This document shows, one piece after another, positions 2,971 to 62,269 of a stretch of 64,000 nucleotides of DNA. Each line of letters starts with the position of its first letter. The first letter of the stretch is position 1. The translations under genes were made by a program, and so were the position numbers. The stretch is from Pseudomonadota bacterium (GTDB taxonomy: Bacteria; Pseudomonadota; Alphaproteobacteria; Micropepsales; Micropepsaceae), in NCBI GenBank assembly GCA_021851325.1, contig JAJZDZ010000004.1, forward strand, positions 62,001-126,000, given 5' to 3'. The notes under the pieces are model-generated. The model ran no database searches. It was not told the origin of the DNA and was given only the letters and a program-made list of their open reading frames with translations.

Positions 2971-3411
2971 ATGAACAGGCATGACGCGTTACCCTTCGAA
3001 GCCACACTCTATGTGAAAGAGCATTGCCTGTGCCTGGCAGCACAGCGCGCAGCACGGGCGCTCGCCCGCAGGTTCGATGCGGCATTTGCCCCGCTTAATT
3101 TGACGAACGGCCAGTTCTCACTTCTGATGGCACTGAACCGGCCGCAGCCTCCGCTGATGCGCGACGTCGCCAGCCTGCTCGCCATGGACCGGACAACGCT
3201 GACCGCCATGCTGAAACCCTTGGAGCGACGCAAACTTGCTCAAGTGCAGGTCGACGCCAAGGACCGTCGCGGGCGACGGCTGATGATCACCCATTCGGGG
3301 CGCGTCCTGCTGGCAAAGGCCTTCCCGGTATGGACGCGCACGCTCGGCGAACTCGAACGCGTCACCGCTGACGCCGAGGGCCTGCGCGCAGCGTTATGGG
3401 GCATATCATGA
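2971..3411 (+). CDS. MarR family transcriptional regulator
   Basis: A 146-residue winged-helix protein. After an N-terminal dimerisation helix comes the recognition region around residues 45-85, with Leu-Thr-Asn-Gly-Gln-Phe-Ser-Leu-Leu and Met-Asp-Arg-Thr-Thr-Leu-Thr-Ala-Met, followed by the wing Asp-Arg-Arg-Gly-Arg-Arg. This Asp-Xaa-Arg wing motif is diagnostic of the MarR family. Members repress by binding short palindromes and release DNA on binding phenolics or on cysteine oxidation. Two cysteines lie close together near residue 15-20, so redox control is possible but unproven. A palindromic operator sits in its own promoter. The regulated genes could include the BNR protein that follows 80 bases downstream. 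Confidence 0.9.
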   Translation: MNRHDALPFEATLYVKEHCLCLAAQRAARALARRFDAAFAPLNLTNGQFSLLMALNRPQPPLMRDVASLLAMDRTTLTAMLKPLERRKLAQVQVDAKDRRGRRLMITHSGRVLLAKAFPVWTRTLGELERVTADAEGLRAALWGIS

Positions 3412-3490
3412 ATAGCGGCACAGAACGGTCTCGTCGGGCGGAAGGTCCACCAGTTCAGAGATATTCAACCGGTCGTGACAGGAGGCTGAG

Positions 3491-4669
3491 ATGGCACGCA
3501 GCGCATCACCGAGAGCAAGACCCACGTCCACGCGAATGATGGACACGAAGCACACGCTCCTGATGGTGGCGACACGCAAGGGTGCCTGGCTCTTCAAAAG
3601 CGATCCGGCGCGGCGCAACTGGCAGGCCGATGGCCCGCATTTTTTGGGTCATATCATCAATCACCTTGTGCTGGACCCACGTGACGGATGCACCATGTTG
3701 GCTGCCGCCTCGACCGGACATCTCGGGCCGACCATCTTTCGTTCCTCCGACAGAGGCAAACACTGGAAGGAAGCGAGGCTTCCGCCGGCCTTCTCAAGAC
3801 AGGCAAACGGGGCGGGCCGCAGTGTCAAGAACACATTCTGGCTCACCCCGGGCCACGTGAGCGAACCTGGCGTATGGTATGCCGGCACCTCGCCGCAGGG
3901 GCTGTTCCGCAGCGAGGATCACGGCAAAACTTGGGAGCCTCTAGCCTCCGTCAATGACAATCCCGATTTTCAGGCGATTTGGGGTGATGACCAGGGAGGA
4001 ACGCCAGACGGGCCGACCGTCCACTCCATCAATGTTGACCCGCGCGATGCCAGCCACCTGTATTTCGGCATGTCGAGTGGCGGCGTGCATGAATCAACGG
4101 ATCGCGGTCGCAGCTGGACGCCGTTGCTCGCTGGCATGGAGGTTGTCGAAGGTTTGGATGTGACGAACATGGCCTTCCACGATCCACATTGTGTACGGCT
4201 CTGCCCCTCCAATCCCGACCGTCTCTATCAGCAGAATCACTGCGGCATCTACCGCCTCGACCGGCCGGGAAAAACCTGGGATCGCATAGGCGCAAAAATG
4301 CCCAAAAAGGTCGGTGACATAGGCTTTCCGATGGTGGTGCATCCCTATGACGACAAGACCGCCTGGGTCTTTCCCATGGACGGCACCTCGGTGTGGCCAC
4401 GCACCAGCCCGGAGGGAAAGCCCGCGGTCTATGTCACCACCAATGCCGGTAAAACATGGCGCCGCCAGGCTGAAGGTCTGCCCGGCGCCCAGGGTTGGTG
4501 GACGGTGAAACGGCAGGCGATGACGAGTGATACGTCCACCCCTCTGGGGCTCTATTTTGGTACCACAAGCGGCGAACTCTGGATGAGCCGTGATGAAGGC
4601 GGACATTGGCAAAATCTGACCCGTCACCTGCCGGAAATCTATGCGGTGGAAGCTGCCTGCATGGTCTAA
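3491..4669 (+). CDS. BNR/Asp-box repeat beta-propeller protein (sialidase-like fold)
   Basis: A 392-residue protein with five Asp-box motifs (Ser/Thr-Xaa-Asp-Xaa-Gly-Xaa-Xaa-Trp), at about residues 84-92, 139-148, 201-210, near 320 and near 365. This spacing matches blades of a beta-propeller like those in sialidases and WD40/YVTN/BNR-like repeat proteins. No arginine triad of true sialidases is evident and there is no signal peptide, so a cytoplasmic binding or scaffold role is as likely as hydrolysis. The start at 3491 has an AGGAGG six to eight bases upstream; an internal ATG at 3536 is a weaker alternative. A gene for a MoaD/ThiS-like protein follows 203 bases later on the same strand, which may be a functional pairing. 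Confidence 0.8.
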   Translation: MARSASPRARPTSTRMMDTKHTLLMVATRKGAWLFKSDPARRNWQADGPHFLGHIINHLVLDPRDGCTMLAAASTGHLGPTIFRSSDRGKHWKEARLPPAFSRQANGAGRSVKNTFWLTPGHVSEPGVWYAGTSPQGLFRSEDHGKTWEPLASVNDNPDFQAIWGDDQGGTPDGPTVHSINVDPRDASHLYFGMSSGGVHESTDRGRSWTPLLAGMEVVEGLDVTNMAFHDPHCVRLCPSNPDRLYQQNHCGIYRLDRPGKTWDRIGAKMPKKVGDIGFPMVVHPYDDKTAWVFPMDGTSVWPRTSPEGKPAVYVTTNAGKTWRRQAEGLPGAQGWWTVKRQAMTSDTSTPLGLYFGTTSGELWMSRDEGGHWQNLTRHLPEIYAVEAACMV

Positions 4670-4872
4670 ATCAGTCTTTCGTCTACTGTCTTCAGTCACT
4701 GGAAGAAAACGGAAAGCTTGGTCGACGTGCAAAGCGGAACAGCCAGAACATCGCGCAGCCTGCGGGCAACAGCTTTATCGTACCAGGCTAACAGCTTTTC
4801 CTCAGCGCTGTATCACAACAGCGCCCATGTTTCACGGCCTCTGATGAGTGGGCTCAGCGTCAGGAAAGCGCA

Positions 4873-5130
4873 ATGAAGATCAGCATGGCCAGTCCGCTGC
4901 AATCCTACACCGGGGGCAGCATGCTTGAAGGTCATGGAAAGACCCTTGCCGAGCTGCTCGAAGACCTTGAGCGTCGCTTTCCAGGGATTCGGTTTCGCAT
5001 GATCGACGAACAGGAGCGTATACGCCGGCATCTGCGCATTTTCGTCAATGATGCCCAGGTCTTCGACCTTCATCACCCTCTGCGACCAGACGATGAAATT
5101 CACATTGTCCAGGCGCTCAGCGGCGGTTAG
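4873..5130 (+). CDS. MoaD/ThiS family ubiquitin-like sulfur carrier protein
   Basis: An 85-residue beta-grasp protein ending in Ser-Gly-Gly, the C-terminal di-glycine that is adenylated and thiocarboxylated in MoaD and ThiS proteins. The sequence Arg-Ile-Phe-Val-Asn-Asp followed by an Asp-Asp-Glu-Ile turn and a hydrophobic last strand fits the fold. No molybdopterin or thiamine genes lie nearby, so it is probably a specialised sulfur carrier rather than the canonical moaD or thiS product. It follows the BNR protein on the same strand. A GGAAAG precedes the ATG. The last four bases overlap the convergent kinase gene. Confidence 0.82.
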   Translation: MKISMASPLQSYTGGSMLEGHGKTLAELLEDLERRFPGIRFRMIDEQERIRRHLRIFVNDAQVFDLHHPLRPDDEIHIVQALSGG

Positions 5131-6587
5131 CGCATCGCCGGCAGGATAAGCCGCGCCTCTAGCCCGCCTAAAGCGCTGCTCTGCAGTTCCACGCTGCCGC
5201 TGTAAAGCCGGGCAATGTCACGGGCGATGGCAAGTCCAAGACCACTGCCCGGTACGCTTTCGTCCAGACGCTCTCCGCGTTCACCGACCCGCATGCGCTC
5301 CTCTTCGGTCAGACCAGGCCCGTCATCTGCGATGGCGATGACGAACTTCCCGGCGCCATGCATCGCAACACGCACACGGACCTCGCTACGCGCCCATTTG
5401 CAGGCGTTATCCATGAGATTTCCGGCCATTTCCTCGAGATCCTGGCGCTCACCACGAAACCCCATGTCGGGCGGACATGTAAGCGAGATATCAATCCCGC
5501 GATGCCCGTGAATGCGCCGCAGAACCCGGCTCAGATCATCAAGCACCGGGGCAACGGGCGTAGATACGCCCAAGACTGCCTGGGCTCCTGCGGCGCGGGC
5601 CCGCATCAGGTGGTGATCGATATGCCGGCGCATGACCTCGACCTGACGCATCATGGCATCGGCCAGTGGTCCCGGATTGGCGGCGGCTTCACTTGTCAGA
5701 ACTGAAAGCGGGGTCTTGAGGGCATGAGCGAGGTTTGAGGCATGGGTGCGCGCGCGCCCGACGACCTCCGCTGAATGCTCGATAAGCCCGTTCATTTCCT
5801 CAGCCAATGGCGTCAGTTCAGCGGGAAAGCGGCCTTCGAGACGACGCGCCTTGCCATCACGGACGCGTGCAAGGGCAATGGAAAGCCTGCGCAACGGCTT
5901 CAGGCCGACGCGAACCTGGATGAAAACCGCACCGATGAGGCCGACACCCAAAAGTGCGAAGGCCTCAAACATCATGCGATTGAACTGAGCGATGTCGCCC
6001 TCGAGGTCTCCCAGATCACCGGCAACGACAAAAACGAATGTCCGTGACGGTTCCTTCGCCGTTTCTCCAGGGAAAATTATGCGCTGCTCAGCGATGCGCA
6101 CCGGCCGTCCATATGGACCAATGCTGTTCGCGTACAGGATGGCATCCGCCTTATGCCGTTTGGCGGGTACTGCGCTTGGCTTGATGGTCCGATCGAACAG
6201 CGAGCGTGAGATCCGTGCCTGGGCAAGATCAAGTCTGCCGGCGATCTCCGGCACGATTTCCCAATAGGATCCCGAGTAGATCCGTTCAAAGCGCGGATCG
6301 TTGAAGCGTCCCTGCAAGGTAACCTGGCCGGCTGGCGTCAGCGCCGCAGCCGCAATCATGCTGCCGAGATCAGCCGCGAGCCGCTCGTCAAACTCATCCT
6401 GCACCGCCGCCCGAAATACGCCTGACAAGATCAGACCACCAACCACAAAGCCGACAATGGTCCAAACTGCAGCCGCGGCGATGAGGCGCGAGGCCAGGGA
6501 GTTGAACTGCAGCCGCGGCCATAAGAAGCGCATGCCGCCGCCACGCCGGGATCCGAACACCCGTTCCTTGCGGTCTGACGCCGTCAT
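5127..6587 (-). CDS. feuQ: membrane sensor histidine kinase, FeuQ/PhoQ-like
   Basis: A 486-residue kinase with one transmembrane helix at about residues 35-60, a periplasmic sensor region of about 150 residues, a second helix near 215-235 and then a HAMP-type linker. The phospho-acceptor motif is His-Ala-Leu-Lys-Thr-Pro-Leu, a form typical of the FeuQ and PhoQ group. The ATPase domain has the N box Asn-Leu-Met-Asp-Asn-Ala, the G1 box Asp-Asp-Gly-Pro-Gly-Leu and the G2 box Gly-Ser-Gly-Leu-Gly-Leu. It is the third gene of a minus-strand operon after the PepSY-like protein and the response regulator, 51 bases after the latter. GGAGAA precedes the ATG. In rhizobia FeuQ responds to osmotic conditions; the signal here is unknown. 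Confidence 0.87.
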   Translation of the reverse strand: MTASDRKERVFGSRRGGGMRFLWPRLQFNSLASRLIAAAAVWTIVGFVVGGLILSGVFRAAVQDEFDERLAADLGSMIAAAALTPAGQVTLQGRFNDPRFERIYSGSYWEIVPEIAGRLDLAQARISRSLFDRTIKPSAVPAKRHKADAILYANSIGPYGRPVRIAEQRIIFPGETAKEPSRTFVFVVAGDLGDLEGDIAQFNRMMFEAFALLGVGLIGAVFIQVRVGLKPLRRLSIALARVRDGKARRLEGRFPAELTPLAEEMNGLIEHSAEVVGRARTHASNLAHALKTPLSVLTSEAAANPGPLADAMMRQVEVMRRHIDHHLMRARAAGAQAVLGVSTPVAPVLDDLSRVLRRIHGHRGIDISLTCPPDMGFRGERQDLEEMAGNLMDNACKWARSEVRVRVAMHGAGKFVIAIADDGPGLTEEERMRVGERGERLDESVPGSGLGLAIARDIARLYSGSVELQSSALGGLEARLILPAMR

Positions 6588-11361: not shown

Positions 11362-12798
11362 TTACCGCCGTGGATGGCGGACAAACTCAAGACTGGCTTT
11401 CAAGCCAGGTCCGTTATCAGCAAGCACAAAGCGCGCCTCATGCAGGCGCGCGACAGCTGCCACGAGAGACAGCCCCAGCCCTGTACCCGGCGAATTACGG
11501 CTTTGCTCAAGCCGTACAAAGCGTTCAGTGACCCGCTTGTGCTCCGAGGCCGGAATGCCCGGGCCGTTGTCAGCAACAGATAGTACCACAACGCCACTGC
11601 GTTCTTCGAGACGGACGTCAATTTTGCCGCCCTCAGGAGTATATTTGATCGCGTTGTCGACGAGATTGGCGAGGGCCTGGCTGATCAGAGTCCGGTTTGC
11701 CTCCAGCGTCAGGGGCTCACCCAGATCGACAGCAAGTTCGATTCCCTTCTCTTCCGCCACCGGAGCGTAGAGTTCGGCAACGCCCTCCACGACGCTGGTC
11801 AGATCAACCAGCGTCATCGCCTCACGTACCACACCGGCCTCGGCCTGGGCGATGAGCAGAAGCGCGTTGAAGGTGGCGATAAGGTGGTCGGTCTCTGCGA
11901 TTGCCGCATCGATTTGCGCCGCGGTATGGGTATCAGGATCGAGGCGCGTTGCTGCAGACTCAAGCCGGTTTCGCAGGCGGTTTAGTGGCGAGCGCAGGTC
12001 ATGGGCGACAGAATCCGTCACCTCACGCATGCCCTTCATCAGCTGTTCGATGCGGTCGAGCATCGAATTCAGGTTGGACGCCACAAGATCAAATTCATCA
12101 TGGGCCCGAGAAACCGGAACCCGCCGCGTCAGATCCCCCGCCATGATCACCTTGCTTGTGGAGTTGATCACGTCAAGGCGTCGCAGCAGATCACTGCTAA
12201 GAAGAACACCGCCGCCAAGCGCGAGCAACAGAAGCAAGCCCACAGACCAAGGCAACGCTGTTGTGAACAGCCGCTCGCTTTCGTACTGTTCGTGAATATC
12301 CCGGGCCACTAAAAGATGTAGTCCGCCGGTCAGATTGAAGACAAATCCCCGGGCATGGCGGGTCTGTCCGTCTCGGTCATATTTGAAGTTCTGATAGTCG
12401 CTCTCGCGCGCGCGAACTTTCGGCCAACCATCAAGATTTCCCGCAATGCGCCGGAATCTCGGGTCAGTCAGCACATAGAGCATCTGTCCGCCGCGCATTG
12501 AGCGCACATTGAGGGCATTGATCAGCCCGACCAGCCCCAGCTCCTGGTATTGCCCCTCAAGAGCTGAGAGCTCCGCCGAAACGATGGAATCGGTTTCCGA
12601 GTTGAGAGCACGCTTGGTATTCCAATAGGTAAAGGCAAGGATTGCGGTCGTGGAGATCGCAAAAAGGGCGACGTAGAGCAGGACAATACGAAAGGCGACC
12701 GTACGCAGCAGGCCGATACGCCATGTCTGCGGCCGGGTCTGCACCTCGTAGGGGGAATGATCTGCGTCCCGCCGTGCGCTCCCCGAACGTTCCTCCAC
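11362..12798 (-). CDS. membrane sensor histidine kinase of OmpR-type pair
   Basis: A 478-residue kinase with transmembrane helices at about residues 30-58 and 185-205, a periplasmic region of roughly 125 residues, a HAMP domain, a dimerisation helix with Ser-Val-Ala-His-Asp-Leu-Arg-Ser-Pro-Leu (phospho-acceptor His) and an ATPase domain with Asn-Leu-Val-Asp-Asn-Ala, Asp-Asn-Gly-Pro-Gly-Ile and Gly-Thr-Gly-Leu-Gly-Leu. The start codon is GTG, 10 bases after the regulator stop, without a strong ribosome-binding site, so translational coupling is likely. Gene order ccm-degP-regulator-kinase suggests it senses envelope or redox stress, but the ligand is unknown. Confidence 0.88.
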   Translation of the reverse strand: MEERSGSARRDADHSPYEVQTRPQTWRIGLLRTVAFRIVLLYVALFAISTTAILAFTYWNTKRALNSETDSIVSAELSALEGQYQELGLVGLINALNVRSMRGGQMLYVLTDPRFRRIAGNLDGWPKVRARESDYQNFKYDRDGQTRHARGFVFNLTGGLHLLVARDIHEQYESERLFTTALPWSVGLLLLLALGGGVLLSSDLLRRLDVINSTSKVIMAGDLTRRVPVSRAHDEFDLVASNLNSMLDRIEQLMKGMREVTDSVAHDLRSPLNRLRNRLESAATRLDPDTHTAAQIDAAIAETDHLIATFNALLLIAQAEAGVVREAMTLVDLTSVVEGVAELYAPVAEEKGIELAVDLGEPLTLEANRTLISQALANLVDNAIKYTPEGGKIDVRLEERSGVVVLSVADNGPGIPASEHKRVTERFVRLEQSRNSPGTGLGLSLVAAVARLHEARFVLADNGPGLKASLEFVRHPRR

Positions 12799-61414: not shown

Positions 61415-62269
61415 ATGACTAAAACACCGGCCAAAGGCCACGCCGTCGATTTGAGCAATGAAGCGGTTCACTGGGATCTTCGCGATGCGATGTCCTACGG
61501 TGACTACCTACATTTGTCACAGCTTCTGGACTGTCAGCATCCGCTGTCAGGCGCGCACGACGAGATGCTGTTCGTCATCATCCATCAGTCCAGTGAGCTT
61601 TGGATAAAATTATGCCTGCACGAGATTGAAGGAGCAGTCCGCTGTATCTGCGCCGATGACCTTGGCCCGGCCTTCAAGATGATGGCGCGCGTTGGGCGAG
61701 TCCAGGCCCAGCTCATCCAGAGCTGGGAAGTGCTCTCGACCATGACACCGTTCGATTACGGGCGTTTCCGTGGCGCCCTCGGCAAGGCCAGCGGCTTTCA
61801 GTCCTTCCAGTACCGGATGCTGGAGTTCCTGCTTGGCAACAAGAATGCGAAAATGGCGGATGTCTTCAGCGCTGACGCAACCATTTCAGCGAGGGTGCAA
61901 GGGGCCCTGCATAGTCCCAGTATCTATGATGAGACGCTGCGACTTCTAGCCCGTCGGGGCTTTGAGCTTCCTGCGGACAGGCTCGCGCGCGATTTCAGCG
62001 CCCCCTATTCCCCCCACCCCCTGGTTACGAACGCCTGGCGCCAGGTCTACCGTGATACGCAGACCCATTGGGACCTTTATGAGCTGGCAGAAAAACTTGT
62101 CGATCTTGAATACCGCTTTCATCTCTGGCGTTTCAGCCACATGAAGACCGTGGAGCGGATTATTGGCGCCAGAGCGGGGACGGGCGGAACATCCGGCGTC
62201 GCCTATCTGCAGAAGGCTCTGGATCTGCGCTTTTATCCTGAACTTTGGGAGGTTAGGACGGAAATCTGA
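61415..62269 (+). CDS. kynA: tryptophan 2,3-dioxygenase
   Basis: A 284-residue haem enzyme of normal bacterial TDO length. It has Ser-Tyr-Gly-Asp-Tyr-Leu, then His-Gln-Ser-Ser-Glu-Leu-Trp-Ile-Lys-Leu near 55-64 with the active-site His, and the proximal haem ligand His242 in Trp-Arg-Phe-Ser-His-Met-Lys-Thr-Val-Glu-Arg, followed by Gly-Thr-Gly-Gly-Thr-Ser-Gly. It opens the indole ring of tryptophan to N-formylkynurenine. Its stop overlaps the CaiB-type gene by one base (TGATG). No kynB or kynU gene lies in the window. Confidence 0.95.
   Translation: MTKTPAKGHAVDLSNEAVHWDLRDAMSYGDYLHLSQLLDCQHPLSGAHDEMLFVIIHQSSELWIKLCLHEIEGAVRCICADDLGPAFKMMARVGRVQAQLIQSWEVLSTMTPFDYGRFRGALGKASGFQSFQYRMLEFLLGNKNAKMADVFSADATISARVQGALHSPSIYDETLRLLARRGFELPADRLARDFSAPYSPHPLVTNAWRQVYRDTQTHWDLYELAEKLVDLEYRFHLWRFSHMKTVERIIGARAGTGGTSGVAYLQKALDLRFYPELWEVRTEI

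Follow-up and report, generated by a model that had tools for sequence, protein, structure and literature searches.

We analysed a 64,000-nucleotide stretch (the window) of contig JAJZDZ010000004.1 from a Pseudomonadota bacterium of the Micropepsaceae (assembly GCA_021851325.1, contig positions 62,001 to 126,000). It carries a gene for an Asp-box (BNR) propeller protein and, downstream of it, a gene for a CysO-like sulfur carrier of the ThiS/MoaD family. All genes, residues and motifs of the window located below are on the forward (+) strand, and their positions count from the first letter of the window. The propeller gene (3491–4669) encodes a seven-bladed protein of 392 aa, as established from the open reading frame (ORF), Pfam, a match in the PDB, a structural model and fold comparison. 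Ahead of its start codon at 3491 stands AGGAGG (3480–3485), which resembles a ribosome-binding site. The carrier gene (4873–5130; ORF, Pfam, model and fold comparison) encodes 85 aa ending in LSGG, and the codons of the terminal Gly84-Gly85 in its translation are at 5122–5127.

The propeller protein

The protein belongs to the Asp-box (BNR) propellers. It has five Asp boxes, at residues 85–92 (3743–3766), 141–148 (3911–3934), 202–209 (4094–4117), 316–323 (4436–4459) and 366–373 (4586–4609), and it exceeds the Pfam cut-offs for BNR_6 (44.3 bits, cut-off 27), BNR (30.3, cut-off 27) and Sortilin-Vps10 (58.2, cut-off 33). Its closest solved relative is PDB entry 3b7f, both by sequence (E 1e-157) and by fold (Z 57.3, root-mean-square deviation (rmsd) 1.4 over 362 residues, 60% identity), the model having a predicted local distance difference test score (pLDDT) of 89.8. 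GH74 xyloglucanases come next by fold (Z about 29–30). Thiocyanate dehydrogenases, at Z about 24–25, are no closer than many seven-bladed proteins and were not used. The reading made from the sequence alone (the sequence-only reading) had called the protein a cytoplasmic five-Asp-box propeller. The five boxes stand; the cytoplasmic location is supported, not proven, by the lack of a signal-like stretch (maximum 15-residue hydropathy of 0.64 in the first 60 residues).

The 3b7f protein, Reut_B4987 of Ralstonia eutropha JMP134, is of the same family, with seven blades and five Asp boxes. It was deposited as a putative glycosyl hydrolase, and the available part of a survey of Asp-box propellers lists it with seven blades, five boxes and a function not known (PMC2716378). 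The window protein does not reach the cut-off of NF045728, the F510_1955 family of glycosylhydrolases (73 against 175 bits). In public annotation the pair appears as a "MoaD/ThiS family protein" beside an "exo-alpha-sialidase". Both GH74 xyloglucanases and GH33 sialidases are Asp-box propellers like the window protein. The motif F/Y-R-I-P is typical of GH33 sialidases, however, and as it occurs in none of the 144 paired propellers described below, a sialidase identity was rejected. GH74 xyloglucanases, whose catalytic Asp pair is in a two-propeller cleft, were compared by fold. The window protein differs from both groups in being one seven-bladed domain without a signal-like stretch.

The carrier protein

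The downstream protein was first described as MoaD/ThiS-like with a terminal Gly-Gly, which the Pfam match (PF02597, 38.5 bits, cut-off 22.5) and the LSGG end bear out. Its model (pLDDT 93.9, low in the last block only) is nearest among solved folds to CysO of Mycobacterium tuberculosis (Z 16.0, rmsd 1.3, 84 residues, 30% identity), followed by the Amycolatopsis CysO (Z 15.5, 31% identity). Further down are a Thermus MoaD-related protein (Z 13.9) and SAMP1 (12.5), and lowest are MoaD proteins (about 10; 1fm0_D 9.7) and ThiS (6.0). CysO proteins take ranks 1–3 by structure and ranks 1–2 by sequence in the PDB. The cut-offs of the SAMP1 and archaeal MoaD families were not reached (NF041918, 35.9 against 60 bits; TIGR01687, 35.2 against 49.5). 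In a carrier tree, 18 MoaD-type carriers with PPxTGG tails form a separate branch (80/86), apart from the propeller-linked carriers. This tree holds 65 of 142 distinct carriers, with few columns and many open forks.

The Gly-Gly is present in 140 of the 141 distinct adjacent carriers counted. Carriers that extend at least one residue past it are found at L100, L101, L113, L117, L118, L152, L153, L155, L158, L253, L257, L258, L271, L289, L306, L307, L309 and L311; these may need trimming by a peptidase ahead of activation. CysO-type carriers that we compared also have one residue beyond Gly-Gly. At two loci, L133 in the Planctomycetota sample and L159 on a Nonomuraea plasmid, a carrier-like ORF 3' of the propeller gene has no Gly-Gly end, possibly through frameshift, decay or an altered role.

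Adjacency across genomes

We scored the two genes as adjacent when a ThiS-family gene was on the same strand within 250 bp of the propeller gene. Four samples were counted: a genome-contig scan, Pseudomonadota, and the phyla of an Acidobacteria-titled and of a Planctomycetes-titled genome. Propellers were found in 28/398 Pseudomonadota genomes (own genome included) and in 49/149 and 63/149 genomes of the latter two phyla. Adjacency was seen for 16/27 matches in Pseudomonadota (own genome not counted), 45/51 in Acidobacteriota and 72/81 in Planctomycetota. The genome-contig scan gave 12 loci, with the carrier directly downstream in all ten close relatives (51–84% identity) and no carrier at two remote loci (L024 and L025, 23–28% identity), which we excluded from the count. 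Pooled, the genes are adjacent in 143/169 rows, or 141/167 distinct loci. The duplicates (L021 = L100, L023 = L136) were removed from the latter figure and from the propeller tree, and kept in the rows and in the 144 pairs. Adjacency in few genomes would have spoken against the pairing proposed from the sequence; with 141 of 167 distinct propeller relatives adjacent, that objection falls.

Two further samples agree. In the phylum of a Nitrospirae-titled genome, 44/198 genomes bear the propeller, and the genes are adjacent at 28 of the 30 loci examined, with one more carrier at 343 bp; the remaining 17 of the 47 matches are outside this count. Among the window's relatives the propeller occurs in 18/61 genomes (own included) and adjacency in 16 of 18 loci from other genomes, both misses being contig ends. 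In these further samples, L319 repeats L019 and L350 repeats L016. The propeller is patchy within the window's genus, being present in 16/37 genomes (own included), and falls into two subtypes there, one with window-like scores and one with much lower scores (E about 1e-92 to 1e-98).

The 26 misses comprise 11 Pseudomonadota propellers (10 from one family), three tandem second propellers sharing one carrier, one propeller with its carrier 803 bp off, three contig ends, one locus (L123) with the carrier past an intervening gene, and seven with no carrier found, four of them after a search of no more than about 1.5 kb of flank. At L287, L290 and L297 in the Planctomycetota sample, two propeller genes stand in tandem with a single carrier gene. 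The 11 Pseudomonadota genomes with unpaired propellers have one to three ThiS-family genes each, and the ends that we inspected look like those of ordinary MoaD, ThiS or another type.

Seen from the carrier's side, a window-like carrier (E 1e-9) is encoded in 88/398 Pseudomonadota genomes and is propeller-linked in 17 (own included). The other 71 have a similar carrier and no counted pair. Of five such loci inspected, four place the carrier near two genes for pyridoxal phosphate (PLP)-dependent enzymes, confirmed by Pfam in L218 and L228. By our reading these encode a threonine synthase and a cysteine synthase, as expected for CysO-type carriers.

Sixteen plasmid records were inspected one by one and kept outside all counts. 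By position or annotation the carrier is directly upstream in six (two of Cupriavidus metallidurans, and one each of B. stagnalis, Paraburkholderia sp. PGU19, P. aeruginosa and Mitsuaria) and downstream in Nonomuraea and Arthrobacter; three Rhodobacterales and one Streptomyces showed no carrier. Of three actinobacterial plasmid loci, one lacks a carrier-like gene, and in the other two such a gene is downstream of the propeller, in one case without Gly-Gly. On the plasmid of Rhodobacter sp. CZR27 (L028, 7583–11110), a propeller gene without a carrier is beside egtB and egtD (ergothioneine) on the opposite strand. The Paraburkholderia megapolitana plasmid (L031, 5261–16258) has YcaO, TfuA-like, hypothetical, MoaD/ThiS and ThiF genes in series, and nearby a second set of YcaO, TfuA-like, carrier-like ORF and ThiF; the carriers here are linked to YcaO-type chemistry.

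Gene order and co-variation

The carrier gene is upstream of the propeller gene at 72 and downstream at 69 of the 141 distinct loci. This distribution needs five changes of order on the propeller tree (142 distinct paired and 26 unpaired propellers; one short search, with Shimodaira–Hasegawa-like approximate likelihood ratio test (SH-aLRT) support only). The two genes thus seem to have stayed adjacent through several rearrangements, and adjacency that persists through changes of order is stronger evidence for joint function than an inherited order. Chance adjacency was rejected on the same two grounds, the 141/167 adjacent loci and the five inferred order changes. Distances among carriers and among propellers are also correlated (r = 0.83; the highest of 999 permutations gave 0.05).

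Conserved residues of the propeller

Six polar residues are conserved in the 144 paired propellers. H233, H250 and R341 (4511–4513) are each invariant (144/144), H178 (4022–4024) is kept in 142 and Q248 in 141; H233, Q248 and H250 fall within 4187–4240, the first where a strand begins and the other two about where the next one ends. Position 30 (3578–3580) is Lys in 133 and Arg in 8, with gaps in the other three. In the model, K30 and H250 are in loops, Q248 ends a strand, H178 and H233 start strands, and R341 is just before one. Read from these positions, the conserved residues appear to be on the face opposite the Asp boxes, which the available part of the Asp-box survey recommends as the functional face (PMC2716378). 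They may form one pocket and an active site. Among the positions that differ between paired and unpaired propellers, residue 139 is Phe in 144/144 paired propellers and in none of ten unpaired ones of one family. As these represent one lineage, the difference is too little to interpret.

Other carriers and activating enzymes in the genome

The genome has three ThiS-family matches, named by Pfam: ThiS together with ThiG in a single ORF, a carrier gene directly before a MoaE gene, and the window carrier. The pairing would have lost its point had the window carrier been the genome's only thiS or moaD, a possibility that these genes dispose of. The window carrier does not qualify as a MoaD, as one query found no MoaE relative in the window and moaD-moaE is elsewhere, nor as a ThiS, as one query found no ThiS-ThiG relative in the window and the ThiS-ThiG ORF is elsewhere. 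The genome also encodes, outside the window, a MoeB/ThiF-type E1 (253 aa) and a JAMM-family peptidase (140 aa), so that activation in trans is possible. No such carrier was found near 11 other BNR loci (nine in the same genome, where several belong to a single gene, plus the remote L024 and L025). Elsewhere in the genome (L248, 555–2166; contig C52, about 12359–12790), a gene with a Multi_ubiq domain precedes one of the DUF6791/ThiF family; the two probably make up a bacterial ubiquitin-like conjugation operon of their own.

Surroundings of the pair

The 203-bp gap between the two genes (4670–4872) is conserved far less than the genes themselves in comparison with the nearest relative, L016, and an overlooked conserved gene inside it was rejected on this ground. 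A promoter and terminator scan of 3350–5200 gave no promoter-like site and one terminator-like site, on the opposite strand within the propeller gene. Directly 5' of the propeller gene, across a 79-bp gap, is a MarR-family regulator gene (2971–3411; Pfam and neighbourhood comparison), which is possibly a member of an operon with the pair.

We searched the whole 64 kb window with one query each (E 1e-3) for MoaB, MoaE, ThiS-ThiG, MoeB, CysM, threonine synthase and JAMM; among these pathway genes, the only ones searched for, no relative was found. The statement in the sequence-only reading that no molybdopterin or thiamine genes are around thus holds for the window as far as these one-query searches reach. 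It does not extend to seven genomes of the same genus (L377–L383), in which the second pair subtype follows UDG, lytic transglycosylase and MoaB/Mog-type (PF00994) genes. As the seven share one synteny block, this is probably one event.

Comparison of 88 neighbourhoods (window included) found no third gene that is widespread among the loci, and single queries for MoaB, MoaE and ThiG found no relative. Minority neighbours, whose counts have no background control, include MarR regulators (5/88, window included), glyoxalase/VOC proteins (6/88), extracytoplasmic function (ECF)-sigma-like proteins (4/88) and YCII-domain proteins (6/88: L014, L026, L075 and L082 by sequence search, L170 by Pfam and L172 by cluster). 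In two Acidobacteriota loci the YCII gene directly follows the propeller gene and has a signal-like start (L170, 5192–5890; L172, 5241–5933); in L170 it separates the propeller from the carrier.

A possible carrier and acceptor pair

As the two genes are neighbours in several bacterial phyla, it is very probable that they work together, and we hold their functional link to be close to certain. That the carrier is dedicated to the propeller is strongly supported, since ThiS-ThiG and moaD-moaE are encoded elsewhere in the genome and the adjacency holds in 141/167 loci in two orders. The CysO-like fold and Gly-Gly tail make it plausible that the pair serves sulfur transfer or protein conjugation, as the sequence-only reading proposed. 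Known carriers with this fold hand the sulfur of a C-terminal thiocarboxylate over to an enzyme that is usually encoded next door, as in MoaD-MoaE, ThiS-ThiG and CysO-CysM. By this analogy, the propeller is most simply read as the acceptor enzyme for the window carrier, taking sulfur from it as CysM does from CysO, a reading to which we give a little less than an even chance.

Under this reading, the C-terminal glycine of the carrier would be adenylated by the MoeB/ThiF-type E1 of the genome, and a sulfurtransferase would convert the C-terminus to a thiocarboxylate. The substrate would be bound at the top face of the propeller, where K30, H178, H233, Q248, H250 and R341 would line a pocket. 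The flexible Gly-Gly tail of the carrier would then enter this pocket and release its sulfur there, in the way that CysO supplies CysM and MoaD supplies MoaE. We infer the thiocarboxylate, the physical binding, the pocket with its active site and the sulfur transfer.

Several findings weigh against an acceptor role. K30, H178, H233, Q248, H250 and R341 are kept in 10/10 unpaired propellers of an exceptional family, so the propeller can function by itself or with a different donor. That family, which keeps the propeller alone, accounts for 10 of the 11 unpaired Pseudomonadota propellers, and a carrier of the window type was not found in any of these 11 genomes at E 1e-9. R304, invariant in small alignments, is Arg in only 117/144 pairs and is outside the conserved set. 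On the carrier side, the ORF extends beyond Gly-Gly in 18/141 distinct carriers and lacks it in 1/141, and the actinobacterial carrier-like ORF of L159 ends without it. In the 88 neighbourhoods, single queries for E1 (MoeB), JAMM and threonine synthase found no relative, and one for cysteine synthase found relatives in just two; no natural fusion of propeller and carrier was found in these neighbourhoods, the only place in which fusions were sought. Common vertical descent alone accounts for much of the correlation in distances.

Alternatively, the carrier could be a ubiquitin-like modifier that switches activity by being conjugated to the propeller or to proteins presented by it, or by binding them reversibly; in Haloferax, SAMP1 acts in this way on molybdopterin synthase. 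We consider this unlikely, though it has a precedent in the available part of a study on the reversible regulation of an enzyme by SAMP1 and HvJAMM1 (PMC4443979), SAMP1 structures are among the nearest folds (Z 12.5), and the genome encodes the 140-aa JAMM-family peptidase. CysO is, however, clearly nearer than SAMP1 (Z 16.0 against 12.5), the NCBIfam SAMP1 score is under its cut-off (35.9 against 60 bits), and no JAMM gene was found with one query in the 88 neighbourhoods. Moreover, the sole lysine conserved in at least 93% of pairs is K30, within the presumed pocket. The propeller could also be a stress or detoxification enzyme, with the carrier as a structural or regulatory subunit and no sulfur chemistry. 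The YCII (6/88), glyoxalase/VOC (6/88), MarR (5/88) and ECF-sigma-like (4/88) neighbours and the polar residues retained in unpaired propellers are consistent with such a role. We regard it as quite unlikely, given that a Gly-Gly present in 140 of 141 distinct adjacent carriers would be needless for a purely structural subunit and that the neighbour counts have no background control.

A place for the pair in a variant of molybdenum-cofactor biosynthesis is improbable. MoaD is a fold relative of the carrier (1fm0_D, Z 9.7) and seven same-genus genomes have a MoaB/Mog-type gene (PF00994) close to the second subtype, but these genomes share one synteny block and may reflect a single event. In addition, the genome has its own moaD-moaE, and one query each for MoaB and MoaE found no relative in the window or the other 88 neighbourhoods. 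That the genes are neighbours by chance or shared descent only, with no common function, we consider scarcely credible: 26/167 distinct propellers lack an adjacent carrier, whereas adjacency at 141/167 over several phyla, through five inferred changes of order, is hard to reconcile with it.

Relation to known systems

The acceptor reading has its closest parallel in CysO-CysM of M. tuberculosis (PDB 3dwg, 3dwm), which shares the carrier fold and Gly-Gly tail. A related type of carrier sits between two genes for PLP-dependent enzymes (threonine and cysteine synthase by our reading). In contrast, the neighbour of the window carrier is a propeller and not a PLP-dependent synthase: relatives of cysteine and threonine synthases were not found in the window, and the typical CysO context beside cysM or a mec-type JAMM gene is likewise missing there for the queries used. 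In Amycolatopsis orientalis, the same carrier fold (Z 15.5, 31% identity) is seen in complex with another enzyme, BexX (PDB 4n6e), which we take to be a ThiG-like 2-thiosugar synthase with a fold unrelated to the propeller. MoaD-MoaE and ThiS-ThiG likewise have a carrier gene beside that of its sulfur acceptor and a glycine tail, yet both are encoded elsewhere in this genome and MoaD-type carriers are on their own branch (80/86).

We found no description of the pair as a unit in titles and the starts of abstracts of the open-access literature; subscription papers are mostly outside this search, and the absence is weak evidence. One article (PMC1779556) has no mention of propeller, BNR, sialidase, glycosyl hydrolase, neuraminidase or WD40. 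In the available part of another (PMC1949818), the terms BNR and sialidase are absent and "propeller" appears once, in the abbreviation list of a figure legend. The two families are known separately.

Carrier and acceptor pairs make thiamine, the molybdenum cofactor, cysteine and thiosugars. The propeller fold is, to our knowledge, not known for acceptor chemistry of this kind, and we know of no other propeller with a ubiquitin-like carrier as its sulfur donor, so this one would be the first if the reading is true. The pair may then represent a class of propeller-based sulfur-transfer synthases with their own CysO-like carrier, spread over several phyla and making a thio-metabolite or a sulfur-modified product; we advance this tentatively, as possible though somewhat doubtful. 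The small size of the pair, its presence in cultivated species and the crystal structure of a close relative of one partner make it directly testable. A widespread pair with a novel acceptor fold would point to a sulfur product not yet recognised. The findings also suggest that many genes annotated "exo-alpha-sialidase" are misnamed, and the acceptor role, if true, would give a function to a family whose structure was released in 2007 and which is still annotated as sialidase or glycosyl hydrolase.

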